Source of the DNA: Phorcus lineatus
Lineage: Eukaryota; Mollusca; Gastropoda; Trochida; Trochidae
Assembly: GCA_921293015.1 (NCBI GenBank)
Contig: OV121089.1
Span: 48,245,220 to 48,309,219 of the forward strand
Direction of reading: 5' to 3'
Length of the DNA stretch: 64,000 nucleotides
In this document: positions 2,855 through 62,159 of the stretch, one piece after another
How positions within the stretch are numbered: the first letter of the stretch is position 1
Layout: each line of letters begins with the position of its first letter
Notes under the pieces: model-generated
Told to the model about the DNA's origin: nothing
Seen by the model: the letters and a program-made list of their open reading frames with translations, nothing else
Databases searched by the model: none
Made by a program: the position numbers and the translations under genes

Positions 2855-3475
2855 CTCTCGCTTGATTGCAGCCTTCTTCTTCACACAGAGCGATGTCCCT
2901 CGCCTGGTATAAACTGCTCGACAAGATCCAGATGTGCACGTCTTGAAATAAAATAACATGCGCACCATAAACTGGAACAAATGTTTGTGGTATCTATGTT
3001 TCAATCACCTTCGTGAGAAAGGCAAGATGACTTGATATGTCTTATAAGCTTTCTAGTACATTTTCTATAAACAAAAGTTAATATAATACTCTCCTAAGTA
3101 CTCATATCATGGTAAAAGTAAAACAGTTTACTTTCATTTCATCTTTATGTGCCAAGTTGACTTCATTTAATTATTTACTTTGGCTACGTTGACAAAATCT
3201 AATTGTAAATATATATTAACTTTTACCTGTCATTATGATGAAACCAAACACGATTTAAACAAAACATATACAAGAAAAGGAACTACCATTCCATTCCAGG
3301 TTACATGAACGCCTGAAGACAACTTGAAGTTACAAGTCATATGTCTCGAATCATATGATGGAGCTGAACAGGAACAGTCCCTGTAACAGAGGACACGACA
3401 CATTCTGATGCCCACAGGACCAGAGGACACGAGGTATGCAGTGCAGATCCCGTACAGAGCAACTGTTGCAAGCAT
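2855..3475 (-). CDS. Gene A: secreted cysteine-rich family protein, partial (exons 1-2 only)
   Basis: Exon 1 is 3475-3287 (63 codons) and exon 2 is 2941-2855 (29 codons), both phase 0, joined by ATG|GTAGTT and TTCAAG|ACG junctions. Exon 2 ends at GAG|GTGAGG. Exon 1 starts with a signal peptide (MLATVALYGICTAYLVSS), followed by the family cysteines at about residues 26, 30, 34, 36 and 48. Exon 2 carries C-x4-C-x11-C around CRAVYTRRG. Exon 3, present in B, C and E, is not found to the left; a LINE remnant fills that place, so the gene is either broken or continues outside the window. Exon 1 is nearly identical to that of gene B (changes such as His/Gln at residue 45). I do not recognise the family; secretion is inferred from the leader. 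Confidence 0.7.
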
Positions 3476-3660
3476 GCTTTTCTTTGACTAACAATGTTCT
3501 TTCTGATTTATGATATAGTCTAAATCTAACCAACACTAAATTGATCAACCACATGTTCGAGAATGAAGCTTGCCTCGATATATAGCGATATATAAGCGTT
3601 TCTGGTATTTTTTTAATACACAGTTGCCTTCTCATTAAAGCTCGAGTCAAGGTATTTGGT
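3476..3660 (-). promoter_or_regulatory. Conserved 5' flank of gene A with TATA-like element
   Basis: Directly upstream of the gene A start codon. Read on the minus strand it contains TTATATATCGCTATATATCGAGG about 100-120 bases before the ATG, then a CTTCATTCTCG...CATGTGG stretch. The TATCGAG and CATTCTC/CACAT words recur at similar distances upstream of B (near 10030), C (near 24950) and E (near 48690). Promoter function is inferred from position and conservation. Confidence 0.45.
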
Positions 3661-4004
3661 TAAATGATCGGAAAAAATTGCACCTTTCTGTTCATGATGT
3701 CTAATTCAATTGTAATTATTCAGTGTTGCGAGAATGTTTCTATTCGGTTAGCAATGTCTGATGAGAAACGCAAATATAGCTACTTAAGATCAACAATGAC
3801 CACGCTCAATGAAATGTTTCTCAGCTTCAATATAAGTTATCCCATTAACATGTTCTCTTTCTTCGGAAATTCCACAGAAGCAATCAATGATAATAACAAG
3901 GAATTTGATACTGAAGTACCTGAATGTCATTTCGTAAACGTAGAAGCTTCAATTTACCATGTGTACTAAGATTTACTAAAATTACTATATAATTTACTAT
4001 CCCT

Positions 4005-4078
4005 ACTGATCCCCACAGGCCCAGATGACACAAGGTACATATATACAGTGTAAACACAGGAACCTGTATTGCAAGCAT
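4005..4078 (-). pseudogene. Relic of family exon 1 (5' half)
   Basis: On the minus strand an ATG at 4078 opens a stretch alignable base by base to the first half of exon 1. CTGATCCCCACAGGCCCAGATG corresponds to the SSGPVGI-coding segment, and GCAAGCATGC matches the start-codon context. The frame is altered and the cysteine-rich half is missing. It lies about 530 bp upstream of gene A, inside the shared flank, so it is probably debris of an earlier duplicate. Confidence 0.7.
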
Positions 4079-4720
4079 GCTTCCGCAGGTGGAATAAGTC
4101 TGGAATGATTTTAATTCAAATCTTTCGCAATCTATATGCAATGACATACTGGTAATTAAGAAATACCACAAAATCAGTTTGTATGTTTAGGAGTCTACCT
4201 CATTTGAGGCAATGTAATCAGGAATTTTGATACAATGTTTTTGATACAATATTCATAACGCAGTTTTTTAATTCTAAAAGGCAAACTGTAATGTATCAAC
4301 ACTTGCACATAATCAAAGATTCATTATTTACCAGATAAATCTATTCCATATCTGCAAATTGTGATCATTCTCAAATTGCAAAGAACACATACACGTATCT
4401 ACTGAAATTAATAGGAAATAAATGTACTTACTGAAATCAGGAGTATATGTTTTCAGACATTTACTGATACTCAGATATTAGTCTGTTATTGTACCCTTAT
4501 ACTATGTGTTTATTATAAAAATAATCATATTGTAACACGTTTATACAATTGTTCGTTTTATTTTTCTGTTTCGACAAACGGGCAATTCTTACACATTAAA
4601 CTATGCTCCCCTATATGATTACCTTCATTGTCTCTTTCCAGACCCCAAACACACATACTTCAACAAAGTAGTGCACAAGTTGTGCCAAAAAACAAGATGC
4701 TAATGACATTATTGAATTGT

Positions 4721-7717: not shown

Positions 7718-9924
7718 TTATCTGACGTAGGTGAAAACCTCTATAATCATGTCATTACCCCATGATCCTTTGACCAATAAATCTTTGCATTTTCTTTCTT
7801 TTGCCATCACTTCTGTGAAGACGTAACGTGATGTCTTATGAGGGTGGCTTAGACAAAGTCTCATCTCTTGCTTGGTCAAGGTCAAGTACACATAGGCTCT
7901 AGATAATATCTTTTCCTTCATTTTCTTATAGAATACCCTCTTTTTGCATTTTTCGGCTCGTACCGTCAAACGGCTATAGCTTGAGACAGAGCATATTGTC
8001 ATAACGGACTCACAACCATCTGGACTCAAGTATGTAAAGCTAAAAGTGACGAAGGGATCCTGTTTGATAATGATCTGTTGCACGAATTCCACATCAATTC
8101 CCTTTTTGGATAAAGATATAAGTGTATTTCGATAAGTTACCTTGAAGCGTTTGCTTGTCTTCTTCCTCATGATTTTCTATAACAGATAAGAATTGATATA
8201 CTTATCAATTCATTGCAGATATGATGTTAGGTAACTATAGTCATTTCAGATATATACTGTGCAATTGTTAGTAGGTCCTCAAAATTCAAACTTTTTTTGT
8301 AATCAAAACATCTGTGTTATTAGTTTTGTAACAACGTATGTATAAGCTGCAAACAAGGGCTCAAGATGTAAAATAATGAACCAGAGCATAATCTAATTTC
8401 ACAAAAAGCATGAAAAGAGTTTACTGGGTACATTGGAATAACCGTTAGGCTAGTGTTAAAGTGCTAACAGTAAAAAATGACCAGTAAAACGCGACCAGCC
8501 TCACTTGACTAGTTGAATGGGAACAACAACACATGGCAATAGAGTTACAGGGGGCAACTAACATGACTTTAGAGTAAAATGGGACTATTATGACTCTATA
8601 GTTAAATCCATCTCATAGAAATCAGTCTGAAACTAAAAGATCGTACCTCGTTATGACATTAATTTCAGCCAGAAACTAATCGCCCTTACCATGTTTCGAC
8701 ACATTTAAGTTCGGAACATGCATCACAAGACTCTAGAGTTAAATCTGACCGGCATCAAAAGATTTGAGAGTTAAATTTGACCGGCTTCAAAAGATTTAAG
8801 AGTTAAATGGGACCAGCCTTAAACTACTATAGAGTTTATTAGGAACAACATCATATGGTTCTTAAGTGTAATGGGACCAGCATCAAATGACTTTAAATCT
8901 TAATGGGACCAGCATCACATAATTTTAGAGTTTAATGGGAACATCATCCAATGGCACTAGAGTTACATGTGGCCAGCATCACATAATTTTAGAATTTGAT
9001 TGGACCATCATCACATGACATGGGGACGCTAAGACTCAAATGACACTACTTAGCCTCATGATCAATCTTTGAAATCATATTCTTTCAATTGTTTTTCTAA
9101 CATCTTTTATATGTTAAGTTCATTTCATGCACTGTTGATTGATTCAAGAAAACCAATAACAGGTCCAATAATGTAAAGTCATTGAGCAAGTCCAAAAAAA
9201 GTTTACACTTTTAGTGAACTAGCATGCAATACCTTGATCACAGACGGTTTCAATTGAATATCAAGTATTAAATTACATTATAGACTGTTTCAGTTTTGTC
9301 ATTGAAACGAGAATAATGGATCATCTACTTGTGGGTTATACATCGGAAAGGTAAGCGTCAAATTCGTTACAGTAGCTAAAGAGTGTAGGTAAACCGAATA
9401 ACAAAAGTGTTTTCCAACCTCACCTCTCGCTTGATTGAAGCGTTCTTCTTCACACAGAGTGCCGTCCCTCGCCTGTTATGAACTGCTCGACAAGATCTAG
9501 ATGGGCACGTCTTTAAATGAAACACTTACACTATAAACCGGAAAAATAAACTGTGATATCTATGTTTCAATCACTTTCGACAGAAAGGCAAGATGACTGG
9601 ATATGTTTTATAAGCTTTCTAGTACATTTTCTATTAAACAAAAGTTAATTGAATGCTCTCCTAAGTACTCATAACATTGTAAAAGTATAAAAAAAGACAC
9701 GATTCAAAGAAAACCTATTAAAGAAAAGGAAATACCATTCCATTCCAGGTTGCAGGAACGCCTGAAGACAACTTGAAGTTACAAGTCATCTGTCTCGAAT
9801 CATATGATGGAGCTGAACAGGAACAGTCCCTGTAACAGAGGACACGACACATTCTGATGCCCACAGGACCAGAGGACACGAGGTATGCAGTGCAGATCCC
9901 GTACAGAGCAACTGTTGCAAGCAT
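7718..9924 (-). CDS. Gene B: secreted cysteine-rich family protein, complete three-exon model
   Basis: Exon 1 is 9924-9736 (63 codons), exon 2 is 9510-9424 (29 codons) and exon 3 is 8176-7718 (152 codons plus stop). All are phase 0: ATG|GTATTT, AAAG|ACG, GAG|GTGAGG, TATAG|AAAATC. Predicted protein is 244 residues. Residues 1-18 form a signal peptide; cysteines sit at about 26, 30, 34, 36 and 48, then C-x4-C-x11-C in exon 2 (CRAVHNRRG). Exon 3 begins KIMRKKTSKRFKV, has LISLSKKGIDVEF, and continues with basic, beta-prone sequence ending EVFTYVR. No transmembrane segment follows the leader, so a secreted product is inferred. Intron 2 is filled by a 33-bp minisatellite. Function unknown; I know of no matching family. 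Confidence 0.8.
8480..9010. repeat. Degenerate ~33-bp minisatellite in intron 2 of gene B
   Basis: About 15 imperfect units built on (A)GAGTTTAATGGGACCAGCATCACATGA, many with AGAGTTAAATGGGACCAGC variants. The same unit, with fewer copies, occurs at 2335-2480 in gene A. Confidence 0.75.
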
Positions 9925-19379: not shown

Positions 19380-19416
<37 letters not shown>

Positions 19417-20582: not shown

Positions 20583-23500
20583 CTATGACAAACCAAGCTC
20601 GACAGTAATCTTCCTACCTGTACCTCTCATTATCATGTTTGTAGTCTTATCCATGGCAATCTTTATCGTGCTTTTGAAAAAACATTTCGAAGTACATCTA
20701 GTGGGACAAACATTTAAAATCAATAATGATTGTTCCACCCATGACACAAAAAATATGTATGATTGATGGACGTCTATAAACTTTTTCTTATGAAAAGAGC
20801 GATTTTTGAAAGCTTTTGCAAAAAGTGTTATTCGTTTCCTGGGGAGGATAATTGTTAACATTAAAGTTAACCTACTTTCTTGTCCTCTCTTAGCAGCTAT
20901 CATCAGGTAAGTGAAACGTTCCAATTCAACCTTAATCTGATTAAAGGATCCCATGTTTATTCCTTTTTTGGATAAATCTATTCCGTAAGCAAACCTTTGA
21001 ATTTCGAAGCGTTGACTCGTCCAATCAGCGTTTTTCTACAACAAATCATGATCAATTAATAATGACATGATAATAATGATATTAACCATTCTAAAATGAA
21101 AATAATCTATATTCTAAACTGCCATCGTTTCATACATCTATTTAATTTTTGTTATTGTATTGAATTTCTTTGTAATATCATTTTCTTAGTTATATGATGC
21201 TAGTGACTTGGAATTGGTGGAAATTTGATGACAATATTTTTTCAATAGTGAAAGTAGGGGCGGGAAAGTGCAGTGGTTAGCGCGTTCAGCTTTGGATTAA
21301 GAGGTCCGTGTTTCGAATCCCGCCAGGGGCTCGGCAACTTTGTCTGCAGTAGAGAAATGTTCTACACGCAGTAAAGTTTGGGTACAATGCTAAACTGAAT
21401 TTTAGCGCAGTACCACCCATGATTTGTAGTTCCAGTCGAAGCTCGCATGTTTCACCGCAGTTGATAACCACAGTGGTGTTGTGGGCTTCCTTCCTGCAAT
21501 AGCACTAGCAGCCGCGATATAAGTAAAACACTCTACTGATTATAAGTGTGTTGTCAAGGCTCACCTGACTCTGGACTGTCATCAAGTTGCTGTGTTTGTT
21601 CACATAGAGCACGTTTCTACGCCTTGCTTGAACCACTCTACAAGCTCCAGATAGGCACCTCTTGAAATAAAAAACAACTTCAAAGCTTATTGACGCTAGT
21701 AATGTGCATATCTCTACGGTAGTAACTATGATTGTTTCCCGTCCAGCATCATAAAAACGAAACATGAACATTTTCTAATATGACTGTCTTCAATGAGTTA
21801 CGTCTTTCACTATATTGACTGCAAGGTGTTTTTTACTATTCTGAGAGGTACACAAAACCATAGAAACATGGAGAGTAATGGCTGAGAGTTATTTTTGTTC
21901 ATGTGAAATAAAACATATTTACACAGCTTTAACTTTATTAAACTCAGTTGCTCTTGTGAGATTAATAAGTATGATACCTTGGATGTTGATGAATAAATTT
22001 AGTTCATTGTGTACCTGATATGACATACATTTATTATGTGAAGGTAAGTTCCTTACAGCACTTTAAAATTACCTAACTTTACCTAAATATTTTACCTAAT
22101 AATTACCTAATATTGAAGAAGCTACCTGTTTGCGAGGCCGTTATATATCCCCTTTTAAAACTTCCTGAGACTGTACATCAAGCATACAGCAAATATTTTT
22201 CGCTTGTTGCACAGCAATACTGATTACTTATTGGTAGTCTAAAGTCCATATTGAAATATACGTTTCTAATGTTTTCTTCAATATTTTTAAATTTTAATAG
22301 TTCTCATATTTAAATGCGAGCGAGACCTTGTGTGATTCTATAATAAGCTATCAAATTTACCAAATAATGATTTCCCGTCTTCCTTTTCTTTAATCATTCA
22401 TGTCAAGTACTTTAAAGTAGTATTTATTAACTGTTTATGAAGACAATACTTTTGGAAATTAAATTCGTCAATCATCAATACCTCGATTTTCGCGCACGTA
22501 AATATAATCTCATCTAAGCTCTTAGTATCTGACATCTATTAAGTAAACTCACTCGTTTTCTTCACCATACATCCTCGTATTTTGTGGTTTTAATCCAGGT
22601 TTAATTATTTCAATGTTGTTGTTTATGTCACTTCTTATTTTGTATCCTATTTCCTCGTGTACATTTATCGGTATTGCACTAGTACTGTTGTGATATTCAT
22701 GTTCCATTGACCGAAGAGTGCACAATGTACTTGCGCACGAATTGTTTGTAAATATACATATTTTCATAATTTTGTACATTAACATAATAGTAATTATTGA
22801 ATTGTCCCTCATTCCCTTGTCACATAAAGACCTTATCATTAATAACTTTCACATATTTTATCTGAACTATTTCTTTTCGCTCTGTTGTTATGTTGCGAAT
22901 GTCAAAATTCTAGCACTCGGTAAGAAATTGTGATTTGACTGTTATAATCTATAAGAGTATTTATAATCAATGAAATAATGACTAGTAACTATTTAAAAGT
23001 GAAATGTGATTGTTTTAAATGTACATTTTAGTTCTGGCATCTGTATTTCAACTTTCTTCGTAGCTGTCATTTACCCTAAAATCTGTAGTGGACGCCCGCC
23101 TAGATCCAAAATTCACTGTCAGTTTATTTATTTCTTTATTGTAGATTGTCCTTTTAGTCTTATTCAAGAGCCTGTATCAAACGGTCATGAAGGACATTTA
23201 AAGGACATTCCATATTCCATGTACATTTTAATGATCTTTATTATTTGTATACTAACTCTGACATAAACGTCAGCGGCCATGTTTTTGCTTTGTTTTGATT
23301 GGTTGTATTAAGTCACCTGATCACTTGGAAAGCCTATAAAAGCAAGCAGCTTTCAGACTCAAACTTAAATCGTACAAGGTAATTAGCAATACGACTTTTC
23401 AGTCTGCTACATCCTTAAAGACCATTATAATAAAAACATTTAATATATTACTTGCTTATAATATTGCTTTCCATTAGTAATAAGTGACCTGACATATTTT

Positions 23501-24846
23501 TTTGGTATTTCCTCATATATAAAAACATTTGATCGTCAAACTTGAAATAAACTGTTGCTATTAAGGTATGAAATCTTCTTGAGTATTTTATTACTATTAT
23601 TCTAATAATTATCCATTAGCTCTTGTTGCACCCTTGCGTTTGTGACAATTTTGAAGAATTTATGAACATCAACAATGAATTCATCGGAATCAGAAAAGTA
23701 TCGCCATGGTAATGGCTCTTATGAAACAATGAACACCGTTAAGATATTGAGAAACAGTAAGTCTCAAAAATCAACCAATTTCTTTAAACACATAGTGGCA
23801 ACACATTATAAAATGCTATCTTAGCAATAATTTTTTTCCGAACGTGTTGTATCACCCTTATACTACTGTTTCACTATTCATGTGTAACTTGCTTTGATAG
23901 GAAGTGATGTGACATATGTTTTTTGTTGAATGAGTATTAATCGGTCAATCGGTCACAAAACATCCTAATCACTTGTAATCTTAAACGCAGAAGCTATTTC
24001 GTGGGTCTTGATATGTTCATTGATCATCCGAGTAGCTCTGATGCCACCTGTCACATTATCACATTATGGATCTTCAGCATTTGGTATCGAGGGCGTCAGA
24101 GATACTTTTAACGATGGTCTACTGCTTGCGGATATCAGTCTTCACGAAGACAAAACACTACTTGTTCTATTAATTTTGGCTTGTCCAATATCCCGTCATC
24201 CTGTGATGACAACCAGAGGTAACGGCCAGTGGCTTCAGTTCTGAGTCAAGTGAATTTTTACCACTGGACAGGTCAGGTGAGTCTAACCTTTTTGCGTTGA
24301 TATCCGAAATTTGAAAAAATATATTCCTCATAAATTTAAAAACACGAATACAAAGTTTTGATTCTTTGAATACGAATTTATTTACATCAATCACATAAGA
24401 TATTTTTCAGTTTTTCAGTTTAAAAGTGATTATTTAATCTAAACAATGATTCAGTTTGGACAGGATATTTCCCCCTTTGTTCTAATGAAACGATTGATAT
24501 TAAGTGACCCTAAGGTGTTAAATATGTAACAAGTGACTTTTCTCTTTCTCATTATATTCCCAATGTGTTTTTTTATTTGCTTGTAATTTCTTTTGCTTCA
24601 ACACCAGATAGTTTCTACAATGGTATTGTATTAATAATCTCATACTCTCAGACTTACCATTTCTTTAACTTTTGGTGGCGGTGATGCATTTGATATGAAC
24701 TCGCAAATCAGCTGTTCTGAATCATATGACGGAGCTGAGCAGAAACAGTCCTTGTCACAGAGGACATGACACAGTCTGATCCCCACAGGACCAGAGGACA
24801 CGAGGTATGCAGTGCAGATCCCAAACAGAGCAACTCTGCCAAGCAT
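20583..24846 (-). CDS. Gene C: secreted cysteine-rich family protein, complete three-exon model
   Basis: Exon 1 is 24846-24658 (63 codons), exon 2 is 21660-21565 (32 codons) and exon 3 is 21035-20583 (150 codons plus stop). Junctions are ATG|GTAAGT, TTCAAG|AGG, CAG|GTGAGC and TTGTAG|AAA, all phase 0; the predicted protein is 245 residues. It has a signal peptide (MLGRVALFGICTAYLVSS), then cysteines at 26, 30, 34, 36 and 48. Exon 2 has C-x4-C but Tyr (TAT) where every other copy has the last cysteine. Exon 3 contains SQRFEIQ and GIDLSKKGINMGSF, then a lysine-rich stretch ending KITVELGLS. Intron 1 is about 3 kb; intron 2 holds a SINE ending about 30 bp from the exon 2 donor. Function unknown. 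Confidence 0.8.
21256..21532 (+). mobile_element. tRNA-derived SINE in intron 2 of gene C
   Basis: The head has a box A-like GTGCAGTGGTTAGCGCG and a box B-like GTTTCGAATCCCGCC, followed by the body seen in three other copies (GGGGCTCGGCAACTTTGTCTGCAGTAGAG, then AGCGCAGTACCACC). It stops at ATAAGTAAAACACTCT, before the tail seen in the copy at 30208. Lies antisense to gene C. Confidence 0.85.
23300..23390 (+). promoter_or_regulatory. TATA-box promoter-like segment inside intron 1 of gene C
   Basis: CCTATAAAAGCAAGCAGC at about 23333 is followed 20-30 bases later by a plausible start (TTTCAGACTC), and then by ACAAG|GTAATTAG, resembling a splice donor. About 290 bp downstream, an ATG at 23675 opens a short frame that can end at AGAAACA|GTAAGT (about 23757). 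This could be a small antisense gene, an LTR (an AATAAA lies near 23546) or chance. No homologue was recognised. Confidence 0.3.
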
Positions 24847-29362: not shown

Positions 29363-30207
29363 ATGTTCAAATTTCAAGCTGTGTTTGGCATCTGTGTTGC
29401 ATACCTCGTGTCATGTGCTCTTGTGGGGATCAGACTGTGTCATGTCCTTCATCTCCATCTTATGATTCAGAAAAAATGATATGCGAGTTTATGACAAACA
29501 TATCACTGCCTTCAAAATGAAATGGATTAGTGAGTCTGAAAATATGAGATTATCAATACAGCATCATTGTAAAAGCTCTTTAGAGTTGAAGCAAAGAAAG
29601 TCACAAACAACAAGAAAACAATAAACAGTAATTGTTAGCATATTTTTTATTTGAAATGCACCTGGAATGTCATGGAGAGAAGAGTCACTATGCACGTATT
29701 AAGCACCTTGGAATCACTGATAGTCAACTGTTTCTTTTAACAAAGGGACATCTGTTAAACTTGCAATGATAAAGTGAAAATGAAATGAAAATGACAAATG
29801 ATAAACTGCATCATAGTTTAAAAGAATATAATTCCTGAAACCCTGGGTTTAAAATTAAAATGATTATAGTTGCTTTAGTGTTTTTCTTGACATTATTGTT
29901 GGATGGGAATAATCATATGTCCGAAAATCCTATTGGACTTCTTAGTAAGTAGTGAATGTTGTTGTGCGGACAAACTATAATATACGATGTATGCAGTCTC
30001 AGAAAGATTTATCGGGTCCCTCTCATACTTACCACGCCATTCTTATCTATGTCACAAGCATAAGGAATTTTGAGATGAAGATGAAAGCGGGTACATATAT
30101 AATATTAAGCATGAAATGATTATTTTGGTTATATGTGAATAGTCAAAATATTTGCAATCAATATATCAAATGAGGACATGCAAAGACATAGTTACCCTCA
30201 TTCAAGT

Positions 30208-42984: not shown

Positions 42985-45900
42985 CTAACACGCATTGCCA
43001 CACTTTCTTAACCTAACCTTAACAATTATCTTTACACCTTTACCCTTTATTGCCAAATCTCTTATTTCCTTGCCAGTCTCTATCTTTTTATAGACATAGC
43101 AAGGCCGATCAATTCCACGTGGACAAATAATTAAAAACAAGGATCGTTCCAGAAATGACAAATTGACTTTGAACGATTTAAGGAGGCCTACTCCTATTTC
43201 CACATTAGAATGTATATTTTTGCAATATTTCCCCCAAGCTTTTGCTTGAATCTTAGTAGCCAGTTTTAGGACGTCAAGATATATTCTACATCGATCAGGC
43301 GTCGTAAAAACCCACTTCAGAATTCTGAAACGTTCCAGTAAAACATTAATCCCAAAAATGGATCTCACTTGAAATCCTTTTTTTGAAAGGGTTATTCCTT
43401 TAGACAATGCTTGAATCTCAAAACGTTCACTTGTCTTCTTTGCAGTTTCCTACAAAAAATTATGATTTATGAAACGTTAACATTTACAGTAGACCATGAT
43501 GTAAAAAATCACTGTCAACATTAAACTATGTTTAGCTGAACTCTGTCTTACAATATTGATATAAGGATCGACATGTAAGTGAATGAACACATTTTTACTT
43601 GATTCGATTTCTTCCTATGAATTTTGTTTAAATGCTTTGAAAATGGTACGTAAGCAACGGGTCTGTGTCTGATCATGATTTTAAGCTGTTTATGATAGCT
43701 TGTAGCGTTCTGTAGTAAAAGTATTTAGTTATTGCCTTGTATAATATGTCTTCTGATTATAAATATGTTTTTAAGCCTCACCAGACTCTTGTCTTCAGTC
43801 TTCTTCTGCTTGACCAAGTTGCTGTGCTGGTTCACACAGATCACTGTCCCATGCCTTGCTTGAACCGCTCGGCAAGATCCAGATGAGCACTTCTTCAAAT
43901 AAGAGATAAATTATCAACTAACTGATGTTATTAATGTCTGGCAATAACCATAAGGAACGTAAACTTTTTAAAAAACTACAGCTCTTTCATGAGTCATGAA
44001 TGCTCCCAGTAACTCATGTTAAAAATAAAATAAAATTATATAGGGCAAACTGACCGAGGTTCGGACAGTGTATCGATATATTTGAAATACTGCAATATTA
44101 AAGATAATTTGAATAAGGTAAATATGAGCCAACCAAACTATCAAAAAGAATTATGTATTTTGAATTTATATCTTAAAATGCAGAATTGTTTATAAATTAT
44201 CCGAAAATAACGGTTTTATTGCCTATATGAAATCGCCCGAGGTTCGGACAGTTCTGACCTAACTTCAAACAGTTGCACATGATCTTCTCACATGTATCCA
44301 TAGCTTAAAATATTTATCAAAATGACCTCAGATATTCCAAAACAAGCAGTGAGTAGTTCATGTACAATAATAGCAAGGTTTTTCGGATACATGAATTCAG
44401 TTAAGGATAACATACAAGTAACCGTACATTCGTGAAAAAGAATGTACGAGCCGCGAAGCGGCGAGGACATTGTTTTCACGAATGTACGGTTACGAGTGTG
44501 TTATCTGACTTAAAATACAGCCTAGTTTAAAGTGTTTTTTGTATGACCTGCTTTGGTTTATGATAATAACATTCGTATTTCATTGCATAATTATAACACA
44601 AAAAACGTTTTTCAATAAAACAAAATCCTTTAACAAAATTTGAGATGGTCCCAACTGGTTCACCGGTCATTCTTAATGCACGTGCAACGTAACCATCTTG
44701 CCGGTACATTCTTAATGCACGTGCAACGTTACCATTTCGCCAGTACATTCTTAATGCACGTGCAATGTAACCATCTAGCTAGTACATTCTTAAAGCACGT
44801 GCAACGTTACCAGCTTAATTCACGTGCAAGACGTTTGAAACCGCAATCAGCTTGGGATTTGGTATAAAAGGAAGGTGGTCTTAATTCAACTTAGACATTA
44901 TGTATGGCAATTTTGTTGTTGAGTGGGAAGACATGGCCGAGTATCCACACTTCGAAGACATTTCTTCAGATGATGATGTTGTGTTATCAAATAACGAAAC
45001 CAGTTCCCTTCCGGGGACCATCTCAAAATTATTATTGCTCAATTGTCCACATAGAAGCAGTAGATTCTTGTAGGATAATGTATGATTGAAACAATACAAT
45101 GACGTCACTGCTGTATTTTAATTTGTGATATCTGCAGAGCATGCTTTCCGATGTTAAATTCTCCCAACACTGTCGATTACGTCAGTACAGAATTATGACG
45201 TCACAATCACATTAGTAGGCATTCGACGGGAAAATGCCGTAATCGCTAAACCGTATGTGTTAAAAGATGATAACTTTGTAAAATGTGTTAGTTGTATGTC
45301 ATTTCATGTTTCCAGAACTTTTGTTGGTTGAATTAAATCATAACAAGTCTGTATAGAGAAAATATAAAAAGTGTCCGAACCAAGGTCAAAACTGTCCGAA
45401 GAAAGGTCATTTTGACATATTACCAATATATCAACAGTTGCTAAGTTAATAACTTGAAATGCACCAATATTCAGCACAATTTGACAGTTAGGTTGCTTCT
45501 CTTTGTTTATGAATACAGTTTACAGCAAAACATCGATTAGATATACTATCTACAATCAAATGTTTATCTGATGAAATGATAAAAAATAACATACTGAAAA
45601 GTAATATTTTAAAACTAATTTATTGCCGACAATGCTCTTATTATTGCATCAGCTCGTTGTCAAAAATCTTCGGGCGATCTCGTGCGGTGTCCGATCCTAG
45701 GTCAGTTTGCCCTAATATTGTCCTTGTTTGATTATCTCTGTATTGATTGCAAAGTTATTGATTGCGATTATCCATAAAAGTACACATGACCGTCAAAACA
45801 TCCTTTATTTACCCAGTTTCACCTCTCTGTCGAAGTTATTTGCCCTTGTGAGGTATTGTTCCTTGGATGTTACCAAATAAATGTGGTAAATCGTTTACCA

Positions 45901-48588
45901 GGCAAACTTGTTTTATAATTATTTTACTTTATTGGTGCATCACCAAACCATACATGCTGTGTGCTTCTTGTTGATTCTACTTTATACAAGAAACTAGAGG
46001 TGACCAAAAAACCTTAGGTATCCCCTTTGAAAGTAGGTTCTCTGAGACTGTACATAAAGCATGCATCAAATAATTTTAGTTTGATAGCAAGGCAACACTT
46101 TATATTAATTAGAGTCTTTATTTCTCAGCAAATTTCAGCTTTTGAATAATTAGCAAAGAAACAGAGACAACAAGATTCCGAATTGGAGAGGATGAAGCTG
46201 GGAGCAGTTGAACGAAAATTCCAACTGGAACAAATTAGTTTAGATAATGTAAACGAAGCAGGAAGGTCGTGAGCATTAGCTATATTAGGTAGGACATGAG
46301 TCGCAGGACATCTGGGTACCATGAAGACCATAGAGCGAATTCAACGACAGATCTACTGGCCAAGGATTCGGTCAGAGGTGGGGAAATTTTGTCGATCATG
46401 TGATGTACCTCAGCGCACAGTACACAAGGGAAGAATACAGAAAGTTCCCCTAGGTATAATGCCTTGGATTGATTTTCCCTTTGATCGGGTAGTAGTTGAT
46501 TTTATAGGACCTCTTGACCCTGTTACTGACCAAAAGAACCTATACAAGTTGACATAGGTAGACTATGCTGCAAGGTATCCTAAAGTTATACAGAATATTG
46601 TTACAGAGACAGTGGTTGAAGCGGAAGTATCCATATCCAGTAGAATTGGCATACCTCGAGAAATACTAACAGATATGGTAAACTGTTTACGCCAGAGCTA
46701 ATGAAGGAACCAGTCATATACTCTCTATGAAACCGCTAATAACTACACCTTACCATCCTAGTAGGGAAATGTAATTGCAATTATAAAGCATGTTAAAGAA
46801 GATGTATTTGGAAAGACCTAAAGATTGAGATTGGTACGTGATATTGTTGTTTCAATATCGTGAAGTATTACAGGAAAGCTTGGGATTCTCGCTCTTTTAG
46901 CTGTTGTACGGGAGAACTATACGTGGACCAAAGAACATCTTAAGAGACGTGGACCTAGGCGATAACGGACCCTGAGGTGAACAGTACTTATCAGTATATG
47001 ATTCATCTCGAGGAAACATTGCTCGAGTCATTTCAGTTGACTCAGAGTGAAGTGAGAAAAGCCTGTTTACGGTACAACCATTAAGCCAAAAACAGAGCGT
47101 TTGTTGTTTTGGAGAAAGTACTTTTGTTGCAACCAACTCAGCCAAATAAGTTGTTATTGCATTGAAAGGGACCTTTTGAAGTAGCTACACAGGGAGATTG
47201 GAGACGAGGTAAGACATTCCACGCCAACCTCTCGAGGAAGTACTAAGACTGGTAGACACCAAAAGAGAGCCATGAAGTGTGTGCTGCCCCTACGTTGATC
47301 AGTGACCAGTGTCAGGACATCAAGAATGTGCTTCAAGTACGCACAGAGGTTATGACAGATATGCATGGGGGACTAGCTTGGCGGAAATATCAATCAAGCT
47401 GACAACTAATGATCCGATGAGACGTAAATTATATACTAGGCCATATTATCTGATGAATACAGTGAAGTCAGAACTTGATCAGATGTTAGACATGGGTGTC
47501 AAAATCAGCTTATGCCAGTCCAACTGATTTGATAGGGAAGAAAGACAACATATTTGTTTTTGTACAGAGTTTCGCCAGATGAACATAGTGAGTACTTTTT
47601 ATCCAGAATATATTCTAGATGCAGAAAGAACTTTTTGTTTAAAGTATTACGCTAAAATCTTTCTTAGCAAAGGATATTTGCAGGTGTCAGTAGCTAAAGA
47701 ATGTAGAGATATGATTTTTAACTGCGTATGGTGTTATCTTTTTGAGCAGAAAGCATGAAGAAGTGGACTTTTATCTAACCTTTACTTTCCCGCAAGCCTT
47801 ATATTTACCTAGCTGAAGAGTTGCACCCGGAATCTAACAATCGCAAAAACACAGCAAGATGGTGTTGCCTTAAACCATATTAAGTTCAGCCCGTGCAACA
47901 CCGTGCATGTGCCATGTTTCTGACTTTGAGATGTGACAAGAGTCACCTTGTCCGCCGTTGAGGCAACATGTGTGAAAGGAAATTTTTATTATTTAAACAA
48001 ACTGAGACTTTAATTCACAGTTGATGAATGAAAATGTGACAATTCTCACGATAAAATATGTAGGAAATTGAACCATTATTGTAAATATTGTACCTAATGA
48101 TGCGGGGAAATTAAATGTGTTTTTTTTTCTCTCATTTGTTATCTTTTAAATTATAGGAGTGGGCTGCATTCCACTTACCATTCCGTTTCATTTTGGTGGA
48201 AGTGATGAAATTAGTTCAAAGTTATAAATAAAGATGTCGAGAATCATATGATGGCGTTGAATACGAAATTGTGTTTGCAGTAGTATGAGTAACATGCTTA
48301 TTGGAAAAGAGAACTATTGAAAAGATTAACACAAAAATGTATCTGATAAAAACAACAGTACACAAAAAAACATATGAAACAAACGACATAATACCATACC
48401 ATTCCATTCCAGGTTGCAGGAACGCCTGATTTCAGCTTGAAGTTACAAGTCATCTGTCTCGAGTCATATGATGGAGCTGAGCAGGAACAATCTCTGTCAC
48501 AGAGGACATCACACTGTCTGATGCCCACAGGACCAGAGGACACGAGGTATGCAGTGCAGATCCCGAACAGAGCGACTGTTGCAAGCAT
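42985..48588 (-). CDS. Gene E: secreted cysteine-rich family protein, complete three-exon model
   Basis: Exon 1 is 48588-48400 (63 codons), exon 2 is 43892-43782 (37 codons) and exon 3 is 43449-42985 (154 codons plus stop). Junctions are ATG|GTATGG, GAAG|AAG, CTG|GTGAGG and TTGTAG|GAA, all phase 0; predicted protein 254 residues. Signal peptide is residues 1-18 (MLATVALFGICTAYLVSS). Cysteines are at 26, 30, 34, 36, 48, then 65, 70 and 82 around CRAVQARHG. Exon 3 begins ETAKKTSERFEIQA, contains GITLSKKGFQVRSI, and has further cysteines, ending KCGNAC. Intron 1 (about 4.5 kb) has taken in a TIR transposon and a gypsy fragment; its remaining sequence near 45800-46110 still aligns with intron 1 of gene C at 21940-22230. 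Function unknown; secretion inferred. Confidence 0.8.
44418..44493. repeat. Palindrome with GCCGCGAAGCGGC loop
   Basis: Perfect 21-bp arms (GTAACCGTACATTCGTGAAAA and its complement, 44418-44438 and 44473-44493). The loop contains a second small hairpin, GCCGCGAAGCGGC. Outer flanks (GGATAACATAC / GTGTGTTATC) extend the pairing imperfectly. Nested in the TIR transposon. Confidence 0.9.
44668..44830. repeat. ~40-bp minisatellite, four copies
   Basis: Four imperfect copies of a unit containing TACATTCTTAATGCACGTGC and AACGTTACCAT, plus a shorter fifth. It produces repeated peptide-like open frames on both strands that I regard as artefacts. Confidence 0.9.
46130..47780 (+). mobile_element. Ty3/gypsy fragment with integrase before reverse transcriptase
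   Basis: Positions 46150-46250 encode a charged, coiled-coil-like stretch of gag type. After a deletion junction near 46280 comes the integrase zinc-binding domain (GHLGTMKTIERIQRQIYWP, then CRSC, about 46300-46410) and the start of the catalytic core (FDRVVVDFIGPLD, 46480-46520). Later parts are broken by stops. At about 47370-47530 a reverse transcriptase N-terminus follows on the same strand (KLTTNDPMRRKLY, KSELDQMLDMGVK), with further RT words (FCTEF-like, DAER, SKGYLQVSVAKE) to about 47710. Integrase upstream of RT is the order known for Gmr1-like Ty3/gypsy elements and the opposite of standard gypsy. No LTRs were identified. Lies in intron 1 of gene E. Confidence 0.75.
48170..48300 (-). 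pseudogene. Relic of family exon 1 (3' half) inside intron 1 of gene E
   Basis: On the minus strand, STPSYDSRHLYL followed by a stop aligns with the SAPSYDSRQMTC part of exon 1. It is followed by ACCAAAATGAAACGGAATG|GTAAGTGG, an exon end with donor like that of gene C. The leader and first cysteines are missing. It lies about 100 bp downstream of the intact exon 1 of gene E, in the same orientation. Confidence 0.7.
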
Positions 48589-50480: not shown

Positions 50481-50481
50481 T

Positions 50482-51815: not shown

Positions 51816-52772
<957 letters not shown>

Positions 52773-52775
52773 TCC

Positions 52776-53834: not shown

Positions 53835-56800
53835 ATGTATTTTCTGTTAGCGCTGCTTTGTATCTGCACTGCATACCTCGTGTCCTCTGGTCCTGTGGGG
53901 ATCACAATGTGTCATGTCCTCTGTAACGGAGACTGTTCTTGTTCAACCCCAATCTATGACGCTGAACACATGGTTTGTGTCTACAAATCAAACACGCTGT
54001 CCTCACGTGCAACTTGGAATGGGAGAGTAAGTTGATGTTTTTTAACGCACACTCATACTTTTCACATGAATTATACTCATCATTCTCATTCAAGTACAAC
54101 CTACAATAAATAAATAGCAATTGCTTTGCGTCAATCTGATTCGCTGAACATGGTAATAGAAGTTCAGTTCATACCTCCATAAACTTAATTTCGTGACGTC
54201 ACATCATTTTAAGCCACGCCCATCGACGGAACTATTTGTAAACAAGTTACGTTTTTCTAAAAATAGCAACACTTTGTGCAATGTCACTTCTTAAAAGTAG
54301 GTAAATAAAAAATTAACATAATTCAGTAAGAAATAATCATTGTTGTCAAAGGTTCTAAAGGTAGTCCTTTTCATAATAAACAAGAGAGCTCTATCAGAAA
54401 TTACAACCGATCGTGTTCCACCCCACAGAAGGCAAATGTCATTCTTCAATGCTCTCGCGGCCTTTGCAGGTGGGTTGGCAAAGTAATGTCGTTAAGTTCA
54501 TGAACAGAGTTAAGCTTGGCTCCTCAACAAGTTTAAGAACTGTGTGCTGTTTAATCAGATTCCGTTAGATCGAGATCATAACACCACTAGTATAGGCATC
54601 TACGAGGGTAAATTCGGCTGGTTTCCTCTCCGAGTTCTACGTTCGCGATTTGTGTTTACAACTGTGAGAACTAGCAATGTCAAGGCCACGTGTGACGGAC
54701 GTCCGATAAGTTCATGGCCACGTGCGTTGTAGATTTTCATTGGCTGATGAACGTTTTGTAGGAGGGGCTAGGGATCCGATGACGTTTTGATTGACATTTT
54801 ATCTCTTTCATGCTGTTGAGCGTTGAATTCATTCGCGTGTATAGTGCAGCTCTATTTGGTGCAAATATGTATATTTAGAGCAATAAAATGTTTTAAAAAC
54901 AACTAGTATGTATATATTTATTTATAAGAATTGACTTCAACATTTATTAAGTTCATGGAGGTATAAACTTAAAAACCGATGTGCAAACTCGGCGTAAATC
55001 CGCTACGCGGATTCACACAGTTTGCACATCGGTTTTTAAGTTTATACCTCCATGAACTTAATAAATGTTGAAGTCAATTCTTAATTAATAATTATTTTAT
55101 ATCACGAGACTCTCTTTATTAGCCTTTTAATTTATCCTTGAAATTGGTCTAATACCCTGTTGTTTTGAAACATTGAATATGTGTGCCTATTCATAAGAGA
55201 GGAAGCATTCATGAATGTGATAATTACAGACAAGTAGCGTTAACTTCCTTTTTGGGCAAAGGTTTCCAAAAATGCATATTCAAGAATGTATACAAATTCA
55301 TACAAAGGCAATTAAATAATATCAAAACACCAGTCTGGATTTAAACATTGAAACTCGATAGTTTATCAATTAACTTAACTTTGTGATATCAAAAGTCATA
55401 GAAGATGGTAAAGAAGCTATTTTTTTTATGTTAGTAAAGCTTTCGAATGTGTTTGGCATGCACGCTTATTAGTAAAACTTGAATCCAAGTATATTATACT
55501 GGTTTAAAGTGACACTGAGTATGTTAGATTATCTTTCTTTGGCTGTAATAAAACAGCCACATAAATGTCTGGCAGTTGAAATTCTGCATCCAATTTAATA
55601 TAATGACCTACTATACACTACCAATCAATATTTGACTTTGTTTCATTGTTAATCAGGTTTAAAAAAATTACATTTGAGTCAATGTCACTATACTGAACTT
55701 ATAAGCACTTTGATGCTGATTTCGGAAAAAACAACCGTGTCGATAAAGTTAAACTATTAATGAAGTTTGATATACTTGACTCCAACAAAAAATACTGTGG
55801 CCCTTACAGAAAGCAATCGGTTGTAATAAATGGTCATAAATCAAATACAAAGTCAATAGATGCTGGTGTTCTCCAAAGCTCTGTCTTTGGACCAATACTA
55901 TGTCTTGTTGATATAAATGATTTAACAGACTAAGACTAAGAAATGTTAAACTCTTTGCAGATGATATTTCTCTATACCTTGTTAAAGAAGAACCTTTCTA
56001 GACTCAGACCCTGCTAAACAGTGATTTTAAAAAAAAATTAAGACTGGGCTAACAAATGGCAGCTTAAATTCAGCTTTTTCATTTAAATAACTTTTCTTCC
56101 ATCTACTGTCTACCATTTAAAATTTGATTCATGTGACAGGACTTTATCTCCTACATTTAAAGATTAAACATCTTATGTTTCATGGCGACGTCAAATTCTT
56201 CTTTGCCGCCTTGGTCGTAGCGATCTCAATTCACATTTGTTTGATAGAGGTTCGTCAGAAAATCGCGCCTGTTCTTGTGAAAACACTCAGGAGGATCATT
56301 TTCTTTACTTCTTTAAATGCCATAGATAGGTTCCGATCAAATCAATACTTTTTTAAAAACGACATAACAAAACACCTATCTTAAGCGGCGACAAGTCCTT
56401 GTCACAGAGAGTTAATGAATCCCTTACAATATCTGTATATCATTTAATAAATGATACCAACCGGTTTAATGCTCTATTCTTAAATCTTTACCAATGCAAG
56501 GTAGACAAAGCTTGATATGAATTTGAATTAAGTTAGAATCATTGCAAATATATATTTCCTTGTTATATGTACTTGTTATCTTAATCGTTTTAAGTTTGTT
56601 TCAGGAGAAGCATTTATATAGACGTTTGCTGCCTATTTGCTAATGCTTTTAGCTGTTGGTATATATAATCTAAAATTTGTATATTAAAAATTATATCGAA
56701 ATCAAATACTGTTTAAATCATATTAAGAGACCCAAATCAGTTTCACTAAATCAAACATTATTAATAAAACAACTGACTTGAATGTACTCATCAATATTCT

Positions 56801-57657
56801 GTCTTCTAGAACTGTATGTCGACATCCTGTAGAGCAGTTGTAACAAGGAGAGGCGTCCAACTCTGCTTGGGTATAAATAATGCCACCAGCGGGAGTGTTC
56901 ATCGTTATATTGATGTGAGTATGTCAAATAAGATGCCTAAAGACCATTCTTTTGATAATGATTAGTTTGCTGACTGTTGTACACATCAATGGTTTATCAA
57001 ATATAGCACAGTGCTTACATTGAGCTTAATTGAAATACAAATTCTTATTCAACCGAGACAGACAGATACTCACGGTGTTTGGCGTCATTGCCTATCGCCC
57101 TCAAAAGTTTTGAACAATTTGAATGACTATATCATGCTGTAATCAGATCAGTGAATGATTTGATACATTGCACCATGCAGTGAGGTTGAAATATCAAAAT
57201 AGCTTGAAGTATGTGTCTCTTATTCTATCTTCAGGATCGGATACAGAAGAAGCGAACATACAGATTTATCAGTATTCCAACACTCGGGAGAAACATGCTA
57301 TCACTCTCTCAAAATGGAATATACTTTTTATCCATGAACTTCACTCGCATAAAAGCAACAGGAGTAACCTCCCTTAAGCTGTTGATATCTAGAAGATGTG
57401 CCTGCAGGCTTAACGTCGTGTTCCATTTCATCAAGATTTTAAACGATATAACTTTACGAATAACTGATTGTAATGAGATTTATCCAAAGAAACAGTTTTA
57501 TGTAAAGAGGATGGATAAAGTGTATGTATGTTTGCACTGGATCAAAGAATTCGTCTTAATTCATGTCGATATAGCAGGCAGACGTGTCATAAATCGCCGT
57601 CTGGACACCCAATCCACATTCGAAGATATTACTGTTTCCGGTTTGGAACAAAGATAG
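53835..57657 (+). CDS. Gene F: secreted cysteine-rich family protein, complete three-exon model
   Basis: Exon 1 is 53835-54026 (64 codons), exon 2 is 56810-56914 (35 codons) and exon 3 is 57235-57657 (140 codons plus stop). Junctions are AGA|GTAAGT, TTCTAG|AAC, GAT|GTGAGT and TTCAG|GAT, all phase 0; predicted protein 239 residues. Signal peptide is MYFLLALLCICTAYLVSS. Cysteines are at 26, 30, 34, 36, 48, then 66, 71 and 83 around CRAVVTRRG. Exon 3 starts DRIQKKRTYRFISIP and has MLSLSQNGIYFLSMN. It ends earlier than in gene G because a TAG follows SGLEQR. Intron 1 has taken in a palindromic element and a LINE. An AATAAA at 58072 has a homologue after gene G. Function unknown. Confidence 0.82.
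54166..54970. mobile_element. Putative MITE body ending in a large palindrome
   Basis: GTTCATACCTCCATAAACTTA at about 54166 is an imperfect reverse complement of TAAGTTCATGGAGGTATAAAC at about 54950, suggesting about 20-bp inverted ends roughly 800 bp apart. The interior has TGACGTCAC near 54196 and a GC-richer core (CACGTGTGACGGACGTCCG). No coding. The right end merges into the palindrome at 54925-55083. Lies in intron 1 of gene F. Confidence 0.5.
54925..55083. repeat. Perfect 65-bp-arm palindrome
   Basis: The arms 54925-54989 and 55019-55083 are exact reverse complements over all 65 bases. The 29-base spacer carries its own hairpin, AATCCGC-TAC-GCGGATT. Capable of forming a long cruciform. 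Perfect arms imply recent origin or active correction. Confidence 0.95.
55190..56520 (+). mobile_element. Degenerate LINE in intron 1 of gene F
   Basis: RT pieces in order: NYRQVALTSFLGKGFQKCI (55225), VSKAFECVWHARLLVKL (55430, motif A region), VVINGHKSNTKSIDAGV and FGPILCLVDIN (55825-55920, motif B region), and VKLFADDISLYL (about 55947, motif C with ADD). It resembles jockey/CR1-type reverse transcriptases. Frames are interrupted by stops and indels. No tail or target duplication was identified. Confidence 0.8.
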
Positions 57658-59261: not shown

Positions 59262-60165
59262 CTATCTACATCAGAAACCATGTCTTCTTAATCCCCCCAA
59301 TGTAAAAATCTTCATCAGAAACCATGTCTTCTTAATCCTCCCAATGTAAGAATCTTTATCAGAAACCATGTCTTCTTAATCCTCCCAATGTAAGAATCTT
59401 CATCAGAAACCATGTCTTCTTAATCCCCCCAATGTAAGAATCTTTATCAGAAACCAGGTCTTCTTAATCCCCCCAATGTAAAAATCTTCATCAGAAACCA
59501 TGTCTTCTTAATCCCCCCCCCCCCCCCAATGTAAGAATCTTCATCAGAAACCATGTCTTCTTAATCCCCCCAATGTAAGAATCTTTATCAGAAACCGGGT
59601 CTTCTTAATCCCCCCAATGTAAGAATCTTTATCAGAAACCAGGTCTTCTTAATCCCCCAAATGTAAGAATCTTTATCAGAAACCAGGTCTTCTTAATCCC
59701 CCCAATGTAAGAATCTTCATCAGAAACCAGGTCTTCTTAATCCCCCAAATGTAAGAATCTTTATCAGAAACCAGGTCTTCTTAATCCCCCAAATGTAAGA
59801 ATCTTCATCAGAAACCACGTCCTCCTAATCCTCCCAATGTAAGAATTTTTATCAGAAACCAGGTCTTCTTAATCCCCCAAATGTAAGAATCTTTATCAGA
59901 AACCAGGTCTTCTTAATCCCCCAAATGTAAGAATCTATATCAGAAACCAGGTCTTCTTAATCCCAACCCCCCCCCCCCCCCCCCCCCCCCCAAAAATGCA
60001 AGAATTTTTATCAGAAACCAGGTCCTCCTTATCCTCCCAATGTAAGAATCTTCATCAGAAACCATGTCTTCTGCATCCTCCCAATGTAACAATCTTCATC
60101 AGAAACCACGCCTTCTTCAACTTCCGAGTGTCACAACCTTCACCAGAAAACATTTCTTCTTCCTT
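59262..60165 (+). repeat. 44-bp minisatellite with poly-C expansions
   Basis: About 20 head-to-tail copies of a 44-bp unit made of GTAAGAATCTTTATCAGAAA, CCAGGTCTTCTTAAT and a C run. In two units the C run has expanded (about 59512-59527 and 59966-59991). Later units are more diverged. Lies between genes F and G. Open frames crossing it (for example 58999-59349) are repeat artefacts. Confidence 0.95.
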
Positions 60166-60440
60166 GTCAGTCAAGCCTTCTACCAGTGATTTATATTTCT
60201 ACAGTTTTAAAAACACACTGTGGTATATATAATTATCATCAGTTGATTGTGTGCTTCTTTATAAGAAAATTTAAGTTGGCACAGTTACACCTGCCGTATT
60301 TAGTTAAACATTGTATTAAACTTCCTTTAACTGTGTCTTTTATCTCTACTTTATGGCATCAAAAGCAAACATGAAGTTCTTAAGATGTCATAATCAAGAT
60401 ATGAAATGAAATCTATGAACAATAGTACATTTTAGAAACA

Positions 60441-60466
60441 TATATATATATATATATATATATAGA
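60441..60466. repeat. (AT)n microsatellite upstream of gene G
   Basis: Thirteen or so AT units inside the upstream block shared with gene F; absent at the matching place near 53545. Confidence 0.9.
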
Positions 60467-60741
60467 AATCTCATCAATAATTACAGAACCAAGGGTCAGT
60501 CAATTAAGTATTAAACAAAATAATGAAAGAAAGTGAAGCGGATGCTTTTGATAACATCAAAATCAAATATCTATATCTAAAACTATACTTATCTTTGAGA
60601 CATTAAAGTTAATAAAATAAAATACAAATCCATCGACACTATACATGTTTGAAAATTTAATGTTATTCAAAAGGCAATTAATATTGATGACTTTATCTCC
60701 TTGCAACTTGTGTTCATTTTGTTAGATATATAAGAAGGATC

Positions 60742-62159
60742 ATGTATTTTCTGTTAGCGCTGCTTTGTACCTGTCATACATACCTCGTGTCATCTGGTCC
60801 TTTGGGGATCAAACTGTGTCATGTTCTCTGTAACGGAGACTGTTCCTGCTCAGCTCCTATCTATGACGCTAAACACATGGTTTGTGTCTATACATCAAAG
60901 TCGTCTTCCTTACGTGAAACATGGAATGGGAGAGTAAGTAAATGTTTTGCTAACTCAATTTTACCAGTTTTCTTATTTAGCTATTTCATTTCCCTTACTT
61001 TGTCACCGCCAAAGAAAGATTAGCACACCTTTTCACGAGAGGAGAATTTGAATCAACTTCACTACGACATCACTACGACATCACTACGCACAGTAAAGTT
61101 ATTATTTTTTCAATCATAAAGCACTCTCAGCATTTTTCTCACAAGAAGTCAACTCAGAATTCTCCTTTAAGAACAATCTGAATTCGTCATGTTATATAAA
61201 GAGCGCTCAATCCTTCCAGTTTAACTCAAACTCAGTATTTTCTAACTAAATCAAACATATAGCAATGAAACAACTGGCTTGAATGTACTCATAAATATTT
61301 CTGTCTCCTAGAACTGTATATCGAGATCCTGTAGAGCAGTGTTAACAAGGAGAGGCACCCTAATCTGCTTGGGTATAAATACTAATACCAACAGGAGTGT
61401 TCATCGTTATGTTGATGTGAGTATTTCAAATATCTAAGATGCTTGTTGACCTTTCTTTTGATATTAATTAGTAGGTTGACTGTTGAACACATCTATGGTT
61501 CTTCACATGTTTCAGAGTGCTTACATTTCGCTTTATTGTATTGAGAGTTTTGTTACACAGTGACAAATTCTGACAGTTATTTGAGCCATTAACTTCTTGA
61601 ACAATCCGATTGTCTATGTCGTGCTGGGATCAGGTCGCTGAATGTCTTAATCATTGCGTTGGAGTAATTGTCTCTTATTCAACATTTCTATCTTCAGGAT
61701 CCCATACAGAAGACGCTTTCAGACAGATTTATCAGTATTCCAACCCGGGGGAGAGACATGCTATCACTCTCTCAAAATGGAATAAACTTTTTATCCATGA
61801 ACTTCATTCGCATAAAAGCAACAGGAATGACCTCCCTTAAGCTGTTGATATCTAGAAGATATGCCTGTAGGCTTGACATCGTGTTCCACTTCATCAAGGT
61901 TTTAAAAGATATAAGTTTACGAATAACGGCTTGTGGGGAGATTTATCTGGACAAAAATGTGTTTGTAAAGAGAATGGATAAAGTGTGTGTATTTCTGCAG
62001 TGGATGCAAGGATTGGTTTGGATTCGTGTCACGACACAAGGCTCGATTGTCTTCAGTCGCTACCTGAAAACACGCTGCACATTTGAAGACATTACTGTTT
62101 CCGGTTTGAAAAAAAGAAAGTTTCTTGAGATTTCCAAGAAGGGATTACGGAGACATTAG
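60742..62159 (+). CDS. Gene G: secreted cysteine-rich family protein, complete three-exon model
   Basis: Exon 1 is 60742-60933 (64 codons), exon 2 is 61312-61416 (35 codons) and exon 3 is 61698-62159 (153 codons plus stop). Junctions are AGA|GTAAGT, TCCTAG|AAC, GAT|GTGAGT and TTCAG|GAT, all phase 0; predicted protein 252 residues. It has a signal peptide (MYFLLALLCTCHTYLVSS), the cysteine set C-x3-C-x3-C-x-C-x11-C and then C-x4-C-x11-C around CRAVLTRRG. Exon 3 has DRFISIP, MLSLSQNGINFLSMN and CTFEDITVSGL, with a basic tail (KKRKFLEISKKGLRRH) lost in gene F. It is the most compact copy: introns are 378 and 281 bp and carry no mobile element. AATAAA lies at 62430. Tandem duplicate of F, about 6.9 kb apart. 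Function unknown. Confidence 0.85.

Follow-up and report, generated by a model that had tools for sequence, protein, structure and literature searches.

A tandem family of three-exon, strongly basic and possibly lectin-like proteins in Phorcus lineatus

In the thick topshell Phorcus lineatus, a trochid gastropod, a stretch of 64,000 nucleotides (GenBank assembly GCA_921293015.1, contig OV121089.1, positions 48,245,220 to 48,309,219 of the forward strand; hereafter the window) carries six gene copies, A–F, and one pseudogene, P, built on a common three-exon plan. The reading favored here, for which the balance of judgment stands about even, is that they encode secreted binding proteins, strongly basic and lectin-like, of a family that is diversifying rapidly. 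The family extends beyond the window and to two other chromosomes, and its first and third exons have incompatible histories. Sequence profiles and structure models support, without proving, a PAN-like core in the first exon and a jelly-roll fold in the third.

Gene layout and extent of the family

The exon ends of copies A–F were picked from open frames and splice signals, and the gene models are predicted. A preliminary description of the window, made from its letters alone, had proposed six copies and one pseudogene with three exons in phase 0, and this layout is re-derived here: within the window a GT donor follows 12 of 12 internal exon ends, an AG acceptor precedes 11 of 11 internal exon starts, and every exon length is divisible by 3, which makes the introns phase 0. 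Copies occur in both orientations, with A–D on the minus strand and E, F and the pseudogene on the plus strand.

Copy A, exon 1: 3287..3475, minus; putative signal peptide and PAN-like core
Copy A, exon 2: 2855..2941, minus
Copy A, exon 3: about -2957 to -3409, outside the window, ~3 kb to its left
Copy B, exon 1: 9736..9924, minus; putative signal peptide and PAN-like core
Copy B, exon 2: 9424..9510, minus; C-x4-C-x11-C
Copy B, exon 3 with stop codon: 7718..8176, minus; predicted jelly roll
Copy C, exon 1: 24658..24846, minus; no PAN match when scanned alone
Copy C, exon 2: 21565..21660, minus; last Cys replaced by Tyr
Copy C, exon 3 with stop codon: 20583..21035, minus
Pseudogene P, exon 1 remnant: 29363..29529, plus; frame changes inside the exon
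Pseudogene P, exon 2: 33262..33366, plus; kept
Pseudogene P, exon 3 remnant: 34015..34313, plus; frame changes and stops
Copy D, exon 1: 48400..48588, minus
Copy D, exon 2: 43782..43892, minus
Copy D, exon 3 with stop codon: 42985..43449, minus
Copy E, exon 1: 53835..54026, plus
Copy E, exon 2: 56810..56914, plus
Copy E, exon 3 with stop codon: 57235..57657, plus
Copy F, exon 1: 60742..60933, plus
Copy F, exon 2: 61312..61416, plus
Copy F, exon 3 with stop codon: 61698..62159, plus; predicted jelly roll (second model)
Loose exon-1 fragment upstream of copy A: 3996..4076, minus; exon-1 profile E 4e-7

The preliminary description was right to present these as a tandem family in which three exons encode a basic, cysteine-rich and apparently secreted protein, and the mature proteins are indeed strongly basic. 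The exon-1 pattern C-x3-C-x3-C-x-C-x11-C, said to be the same on both strands, is invariant in all six copies. Two further generalizations hold in five copies of the six: the exon-2 pattern C-x4-C-x11-C around CRAV fails in copy C, which has Tyr for the last Cys and reads CRVV, and the long third exon lies inside the window in every copy other than A.

The cluster had been described from the copies in the window, which are confirmed; it continues beyond the window on both sides. In the genome searched (957,807,699 bases in 74 contigs), the window is positions 48245220-48309219 of contig C15, which is taken as chromosome 9; C37 and C32 are taken as chromosomes 16 and 15. With a further 140 kb read on the left side of the window and 100 kb on its right, the sequence covered comes to 304 kb, in which negative coordinates lie left of the window. 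Profiles of the exons locate 15 exon-1, 13 exon-2 and 12 exon-3 places there. Eleven copies have the full, ordered set of exons, namely A–F, H1–H4 on the left side of the window and, immediately beyond its right end, G. For these 11, E-values from profiles built on sequences that include the scored copies run from 2e-27 to 9e-39 for exon 1, from 8e-13 to 6e-18 for exon 2 and from 3e-45 to 1e-56 for exon 3. On reversed DNA the best values are 0.19, 0.19 and 0.12 (3, 4 and 8 matches at E <= 1), and a search with the single protein of copy D exon 1 recovers other copies at E <1e-4, independently of the profiles. The exon matches are not due to chance. The outer stretches, +67 kb to +164 kb on one side and -140 kb to -100 kb on the other, yield nothing above the thresholds. 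Copy G has a stop codon inside the signal peptide and exon 1 of H2, as read, is without a start codon; these two genes may be damaged or may use another first exon. In H1 the third exon (locus L009, about -98320 to -99417) carries an in-frame, 200-residue Lys/Thr-rich repeat ahead of the predicted jelly-roll domain.

Across the genome, exon 1 of copy D matches 69 places at E <= 10. The 20 clear ones (E <1e-4) fall on C15 (15, at 47.80-48.31 Mb), C37 (4, near 35.06-35.09 Mb) and C32 (1); the other 49 are weak (E >= 0.005), and three of these adjoin listed C15 copies or remnants. The third exon of H3 finds 20 places, 12 of them at E <0.01 and all 12 in the family regions of C15, C37 and C32; with the third exon of H2 there are 8 matches, none of them off C15 and C37. 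The exon 3 of the C32 copy is broken.

Separate histories of the first and third exons

Evidence for the incompatible histories of exons 1 and 3 comes from divergence, flanking identity and tree comparison. Synonymous divergence between copies A and D is 0.15 (0.04-0.29) in exon 1 versus 1.23 (0.86-2.06) in exon 3, and that between D and H3 is 0.11 (0.02-0.24) versus 0.80 (0.56-1.21). Over the 450 bases that precede exon 1, A shares 81% identity with D and 44% with H4, with other unrelated flanks in the alignment at 39-47%; the third exon of copy A is nearer that of H4 (72%) than that of D (43%). Between A and B, identity is 87-91% across the 5' block (upstream region, exons 1 and 2, and nearby intron sequence) and 75% across the exon-3 block, non-coding sequence included. 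In approximately unbiased (AU) tests, the upstream region together with exon 1 rejects the exon-3 grouping (p 0.006), exon 3 rejects the grouping of A, B, D and H3 (p 3e-7), and the exon-1 and exon-3 trees of fifteen genes reject each other (p 5e-8 and 2e-152). Because selection cannot by itself lower the age of the non-coding and synonymous sites in the 5' block, these patterns point to exchange of the promoter-exon-1 block between paralogues.

Ratios of nonsynonymous to synonymous divergence (dN/dS) were obtained by Nei-Gojobori counting with bootstrap. Exon 3 gives 0.59-1.55 over nine chosen pairs, with one interval above 1 (C–H3, 1.55, 1.06-2.56) and none wholly below it, the intervals being uncorrected for nine pairs. 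For exon 1 the ratios are 0.45-0.78 in eight computable pairs, one interval lying just below 1 (C–H3, 0.23-0.99), and for exon 2 they are 0.49-2.08 in ten pairs (29-36 codons). Such values bear on the explanation that the family consists mostly of decaying copies without present function, kept by recent duplication: exon-3 dN/dS is indistinguishable from 1 in eight of the nine pairs, and the full pseudogene in the window, the broken exon on C32, the stop in copy G and the missing start codon in H2 would all be expected of it. However, the exon-3 frame is open in all 11 three-exon copies, at divergences where stops or frameshifts would be expected without constraint, and splice sites have been kept, so that decay is a very improbable account of the whole.

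The PAN-like first exon and the predicted fold of the third

Exon 1 opens with a hydrophobic stretch whose hydropathy fits a signal peptide, followed in most copies by G-P-V-G-I-x-x-C and then by the cysteine core. The central Cys core of PAN domains has the form C-x3-C-x5/6-C-x(about 11)-C. Exon 1 has this spacing, as C-x3-C-x5-C-x11-C, and the correspondence is visible in profile alignments. The likeness to PAN/apple proteins (PF00024, PF08276; the apple domain of factor XI) extends to the surrounding residues and appears as weak, repeated profile matches. Three of the five complete window proteins match PAN_2 at E 0.019-0.12 and two give no PAN match. When exon 1 is scanned alone, five of the six window copies match PAN at E <= 10 (all but copy C), with PAN_1 scores of 18.6, 20.3 and 18.7 bits for A, B and D against a cut-off of 21.4 and PAN_2 scores of 11.1 and 12.1 bits for E and F against 21.1. 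Over the whole family 11 of 16 members match, and the cluster paralogue H4 is the only one above a Pfam PAN cut-off (PAN_2, 21.9 versus 21.1). A complete PAN domain includes first and last strands and an outer Cys pair, whereas the exon-1 matches cover just profile positions ~21-64 of 67-76 and leave these parts unmatched. Exon 2 may supply the end of the domain, though segments of relatives resemble it only weakly.

Of the weak genome places, nine were examined in sequence, and the motif P-x-G-x3-C-x2-[LI]-C is common to them all. Every one is matched by the cluster profile at E <= 6.5e-4 (database size set to 12,000), a result that is not independent since the relatives were preselected by their exon-1 match. 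PAN_1 matches six, two of them above its cut-off of 21.4 (L043 at 25.3, L051 at 22.3). Across 25 sequences, family and weak relatives together, the four core Cys columns are conserved at 90% or more, and PAN_1 matches 12, PAN_2 10 and PAN_4 4. A profile of these 25 sequences finds four matches in the PDB at E <= 10. Three are deposited as a Kelch domain-containing protein (whole E 0.004, each consisting of two stretches weak alone), which is presumably a fungal oxidase with PAN domains, and the fourth is factor XI, 2j8j (E 0.055). PAN_1 domains are numerous in the genome: with PAN_1 itself as query it gives 907 candidates, and none of the 150 scored lies inside the family clusters; some of the PAN_1 matches in the genome start near profile position 20. 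Exon 1 probably encodes a PAN-like core, divergent and incomplete, that carries an additional Cys and stands at the edge of formal membership.

Other assignments for exon 1 were set aside. LRRNT was weighed by eye, and PAN was preferred because the profiles supported it. Matches of a six-sequence profile to Squamosa and FGF21 disappeared with 25 sequences, the Kelch-titled protein being present in both searches (E 2.6, then 0.004), and matches to a spider toxin (E 0.013, H4) and to PHD, RELT and L37e (one of the 25 each) are at chance level.

Exons combining a signal peptide with half a PAN domain, to judge from their sequences, are found on many chromosomes (C9:33427658, C41:9721673, C25, C19, C2, C29 and others), some of them followed by other open frames. 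Among relatives with the same type of exon 1, a 258-residue frame stands downstream near L043 and a repeat frame near L046, which, with linkage judged by open-frame order only, suggests that the exon-1 module is used with several partners. The 258-residue frame looked like a β-propeller by eye and has no Pfam match at E 0.01. The exon-2 profile finds nothing in L043-L051 at E 10; exon-2-like segments in L046 and L049 and near L047 score 6.7, 4.3 and -1.0 bits, inside the range of reversed DNA (top 10.6), and are a suggestion only. A broader proposal, that one export cassette (promoter, signal peptide and half PAN) stands before unrelated C-terminal modules genome-wide and has been moved by gene conversion between paralogues with different jelly-roll heads, is considered unlikely, though not negligible.

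The third exon presents a different problem. It is poorly conserved, with 15-29% identity to copy D in a five-copy alignment, E and F being 68% identical, and a Pfam scan of the five complete proteins and five exon 3s places no family above cut-off; matches to mIF3 (E 0.074, one of five proteins) and a late-blight NB-LRR family (E 0.13, one of five exon 3s) are at chance level. Two AlphaFold models were made, for the paralogues B and F (18% identity), and each shows, at low confidence, a jelly roll of the concanavalin/galectin type. In structural comparison both models match galectins, GRIFIN and C. elegans LEC-6 among them, best or nearly best. In the second model beta-glucanases head the Foldseek matches, and beta-glucanases, CBM66 and a PilC pilin match as well as galectins do; the lists also hold coronavirus spike domains and GH32 and GH43 modules. 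The earlier view that these proteins match no named family goes too far: no Pfam family reaches its cut-off on the five complete window proteins, but their parts can be placed in some measure, given the weak PAN matches, the score of H4 and the low-confidence jelly roll.

Structural matches of this kind raise the possibility of a true galectin family (PF00337) that has acquired a signal peptide and a PAN module. The predicted fold is of similar size, but the galectin profile matches none of the five proteins at E <= 10 and none of the five exon 3s at E <= 1, and of its 46 matches in the genome none is within the family clusters. Most of those 46 are partial, suggesting divided exons, whereas exon 3 would hold the whole domain in one exon. 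Galectin sugar sites carry the motifs H-x-N-x-R and W-x-x-E-x-R, both missing here, and the family differs further in its putative signal peptide and basic charge. With other jelly rolls matching equally well, galectin ancestry is highly doubtful. Laminin_G_3, beta-glucanase (GH16) and CBM66 domains share the general jelly-roll fold of the exon-3 models. The combination of PAN with Laminin_G_3 is a common architecture and was the expected pairing for exons 1 and 3; it was set aside, PF13385 having no member here. That profile matches 41 places in the genome, none in the family clusters, and none of the window proteins or exon 3s, and by eye no PF13385 place lies within ~400 kb of the listed PAN places (150 of 907 PAN candidates scored).

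The predicted fold also bears on whether these are gamete-recognition proteins, basic components of sperm or egg coat under sexual conflict. Lysin-type proteins of abalone and top shells evolve in this way, and the strongly basic mature proteins, small tandem copies, vetigastropod host and fast change of exon 3, including the one pair of nine above a dN/dS of 1, would fit. Lysins, however, are helical, and exon 3 is predicted to be mostly beta. A gamete role is rather unlikely, though to be taken seriously.

Candidate functions and comparison with known systems

As a family of secreted, lectin-like binding proteins, its members would be exported by means of the signal peptide encoded in a promoter and first-exon module, the PAN-like part would hold the protein to a partner protein or matrix, and the basic face of the jelly roll would bind polyanionic glycans or a protein target. 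It is the basic charge that suggests polyanionic targets; sugar binding is unproven, given the absence of the galectin motifs. Tandem duplication and exchange of the promoter-exon-1 block would preserve the likeness of the export module among copies as their third exons drift apart.

Basic charge would also suit shell or mucus matrix proteins, secreted to cross-link acidic polysaccharide or chitin. The Lys/Thr-rich repeat of H1 is compatible with such a role, as are chitin-binding-like open frames ~45-62 kb upstream of the window (loci L012-L014).

Chitin-binding-like frame: about -62343, plus
Chitin-binding-like frame: about -53330, plus; scanned, CBM_14, E <1e-13
Chitin-binding-like frame: about -47544, plus; scanned, CBM_14, E <1e-13
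Chitin-binding-like frame: about -44846, plus

Two of the four were scanned and both are CBM_14. These neighbors may nevertheless be coincidental, and diversification of a folded domain is not required of matrix proteins, so that a matrix family is quite unlikely.

Several considerations weigh against a diversifying family of secreted, lectin-like binding proteins. Signal peptides were called from hydropathy and cleavage-like residues only. None of the six window exon 1s and none of the five complete window proteins reaches a Pfam PAN cut-off, and 5 of 16 family exon 1s, copy C included, have no PAN match when scanned alone. The two structure models were built on the same five sequences, their mean predicted local distance difference test (pLDDT) scores are 54.6 and 57.1, with the other four models of each run at 31-50, and none of the 974 Foldseek matches of the copy B model reaches E 0.001. 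Neither of the two galectin sugar-site motifs is found in any of nine exon 3s. Support is poor for many branches of the exon-1 tree, a condition that can sharpen AU tests, and neither diversifying nor purifying selection on exon 3 is firmly established. Of the candidate roles, defense seems the most likely, with reproduction second and matrix third, in a tentative order.

Mobile elements and repeats are scattered among the copies. Between pseudogene P and copy D, remains of a reverse-transcriptase element (39319-41435, minus; two open frames) match RVT_1 (E 3e-21) and zf-RVT (E 4e-7), and intron 1 of copy D holds a retroelement piece, an open frame with Integrase_H2C2 (46300-46557, plus; E 6e-12). 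An open frame at 52152-52592 (plus) has a sub-threshold GIY-YIG match (E 0.003) and could be a Penelope-like element. A minisatellite of 44-base units lies between E and F (59168-60223; 16 copies of a reference stretch in register). Intron 2 of A and of B contains a 32-base tandem repeat (2321-2492 and 8689-9052), and in BLAST alignments H4 has a longer array of it, also in intron 2. A perfect inverted repeat in intron 1 of copy E (54925-55083; 65 bases, gap of 29) resembles a fold-back mobile element. A tRNA scan of the window found none.

Parallels for the putative recognition role are found in freshwater snails, whose variable immunoglobulin and lectin (VIgL) proteins FREP, CREP and GREP are plasma proteins with an N-terminal module and a C-terminal lectin-type domain, used in defense, GREP ending in a galectin domain (PMC5433772). 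The resemblance is in logic, not in parts. VIgL proteins have Ig domains in front, whereas the family here has a PAN-like core in that position, and none of the five complete window proteins has an Ig, fibrinogen, C-type lectin or galectin Pfam match. Searches of open-licence papers met no description of such a family.

If the export cassette does stand before unrelated modules genome-wide, cassette swapping would amount to a germline-combinatorial repertoire of secreted recognition proteins, following a logic like that of FREP and GREP with other domains. The clashing histories of exons 1 and 3 offer a clear natural case of module exchange inside a tandem family. Should secretion and binding be confirmed, the family would represent a new type of diversifying mollusc recognition protein, in which a PAN-like export module is joined to a galectin-like fold unseen by the profiles tried.

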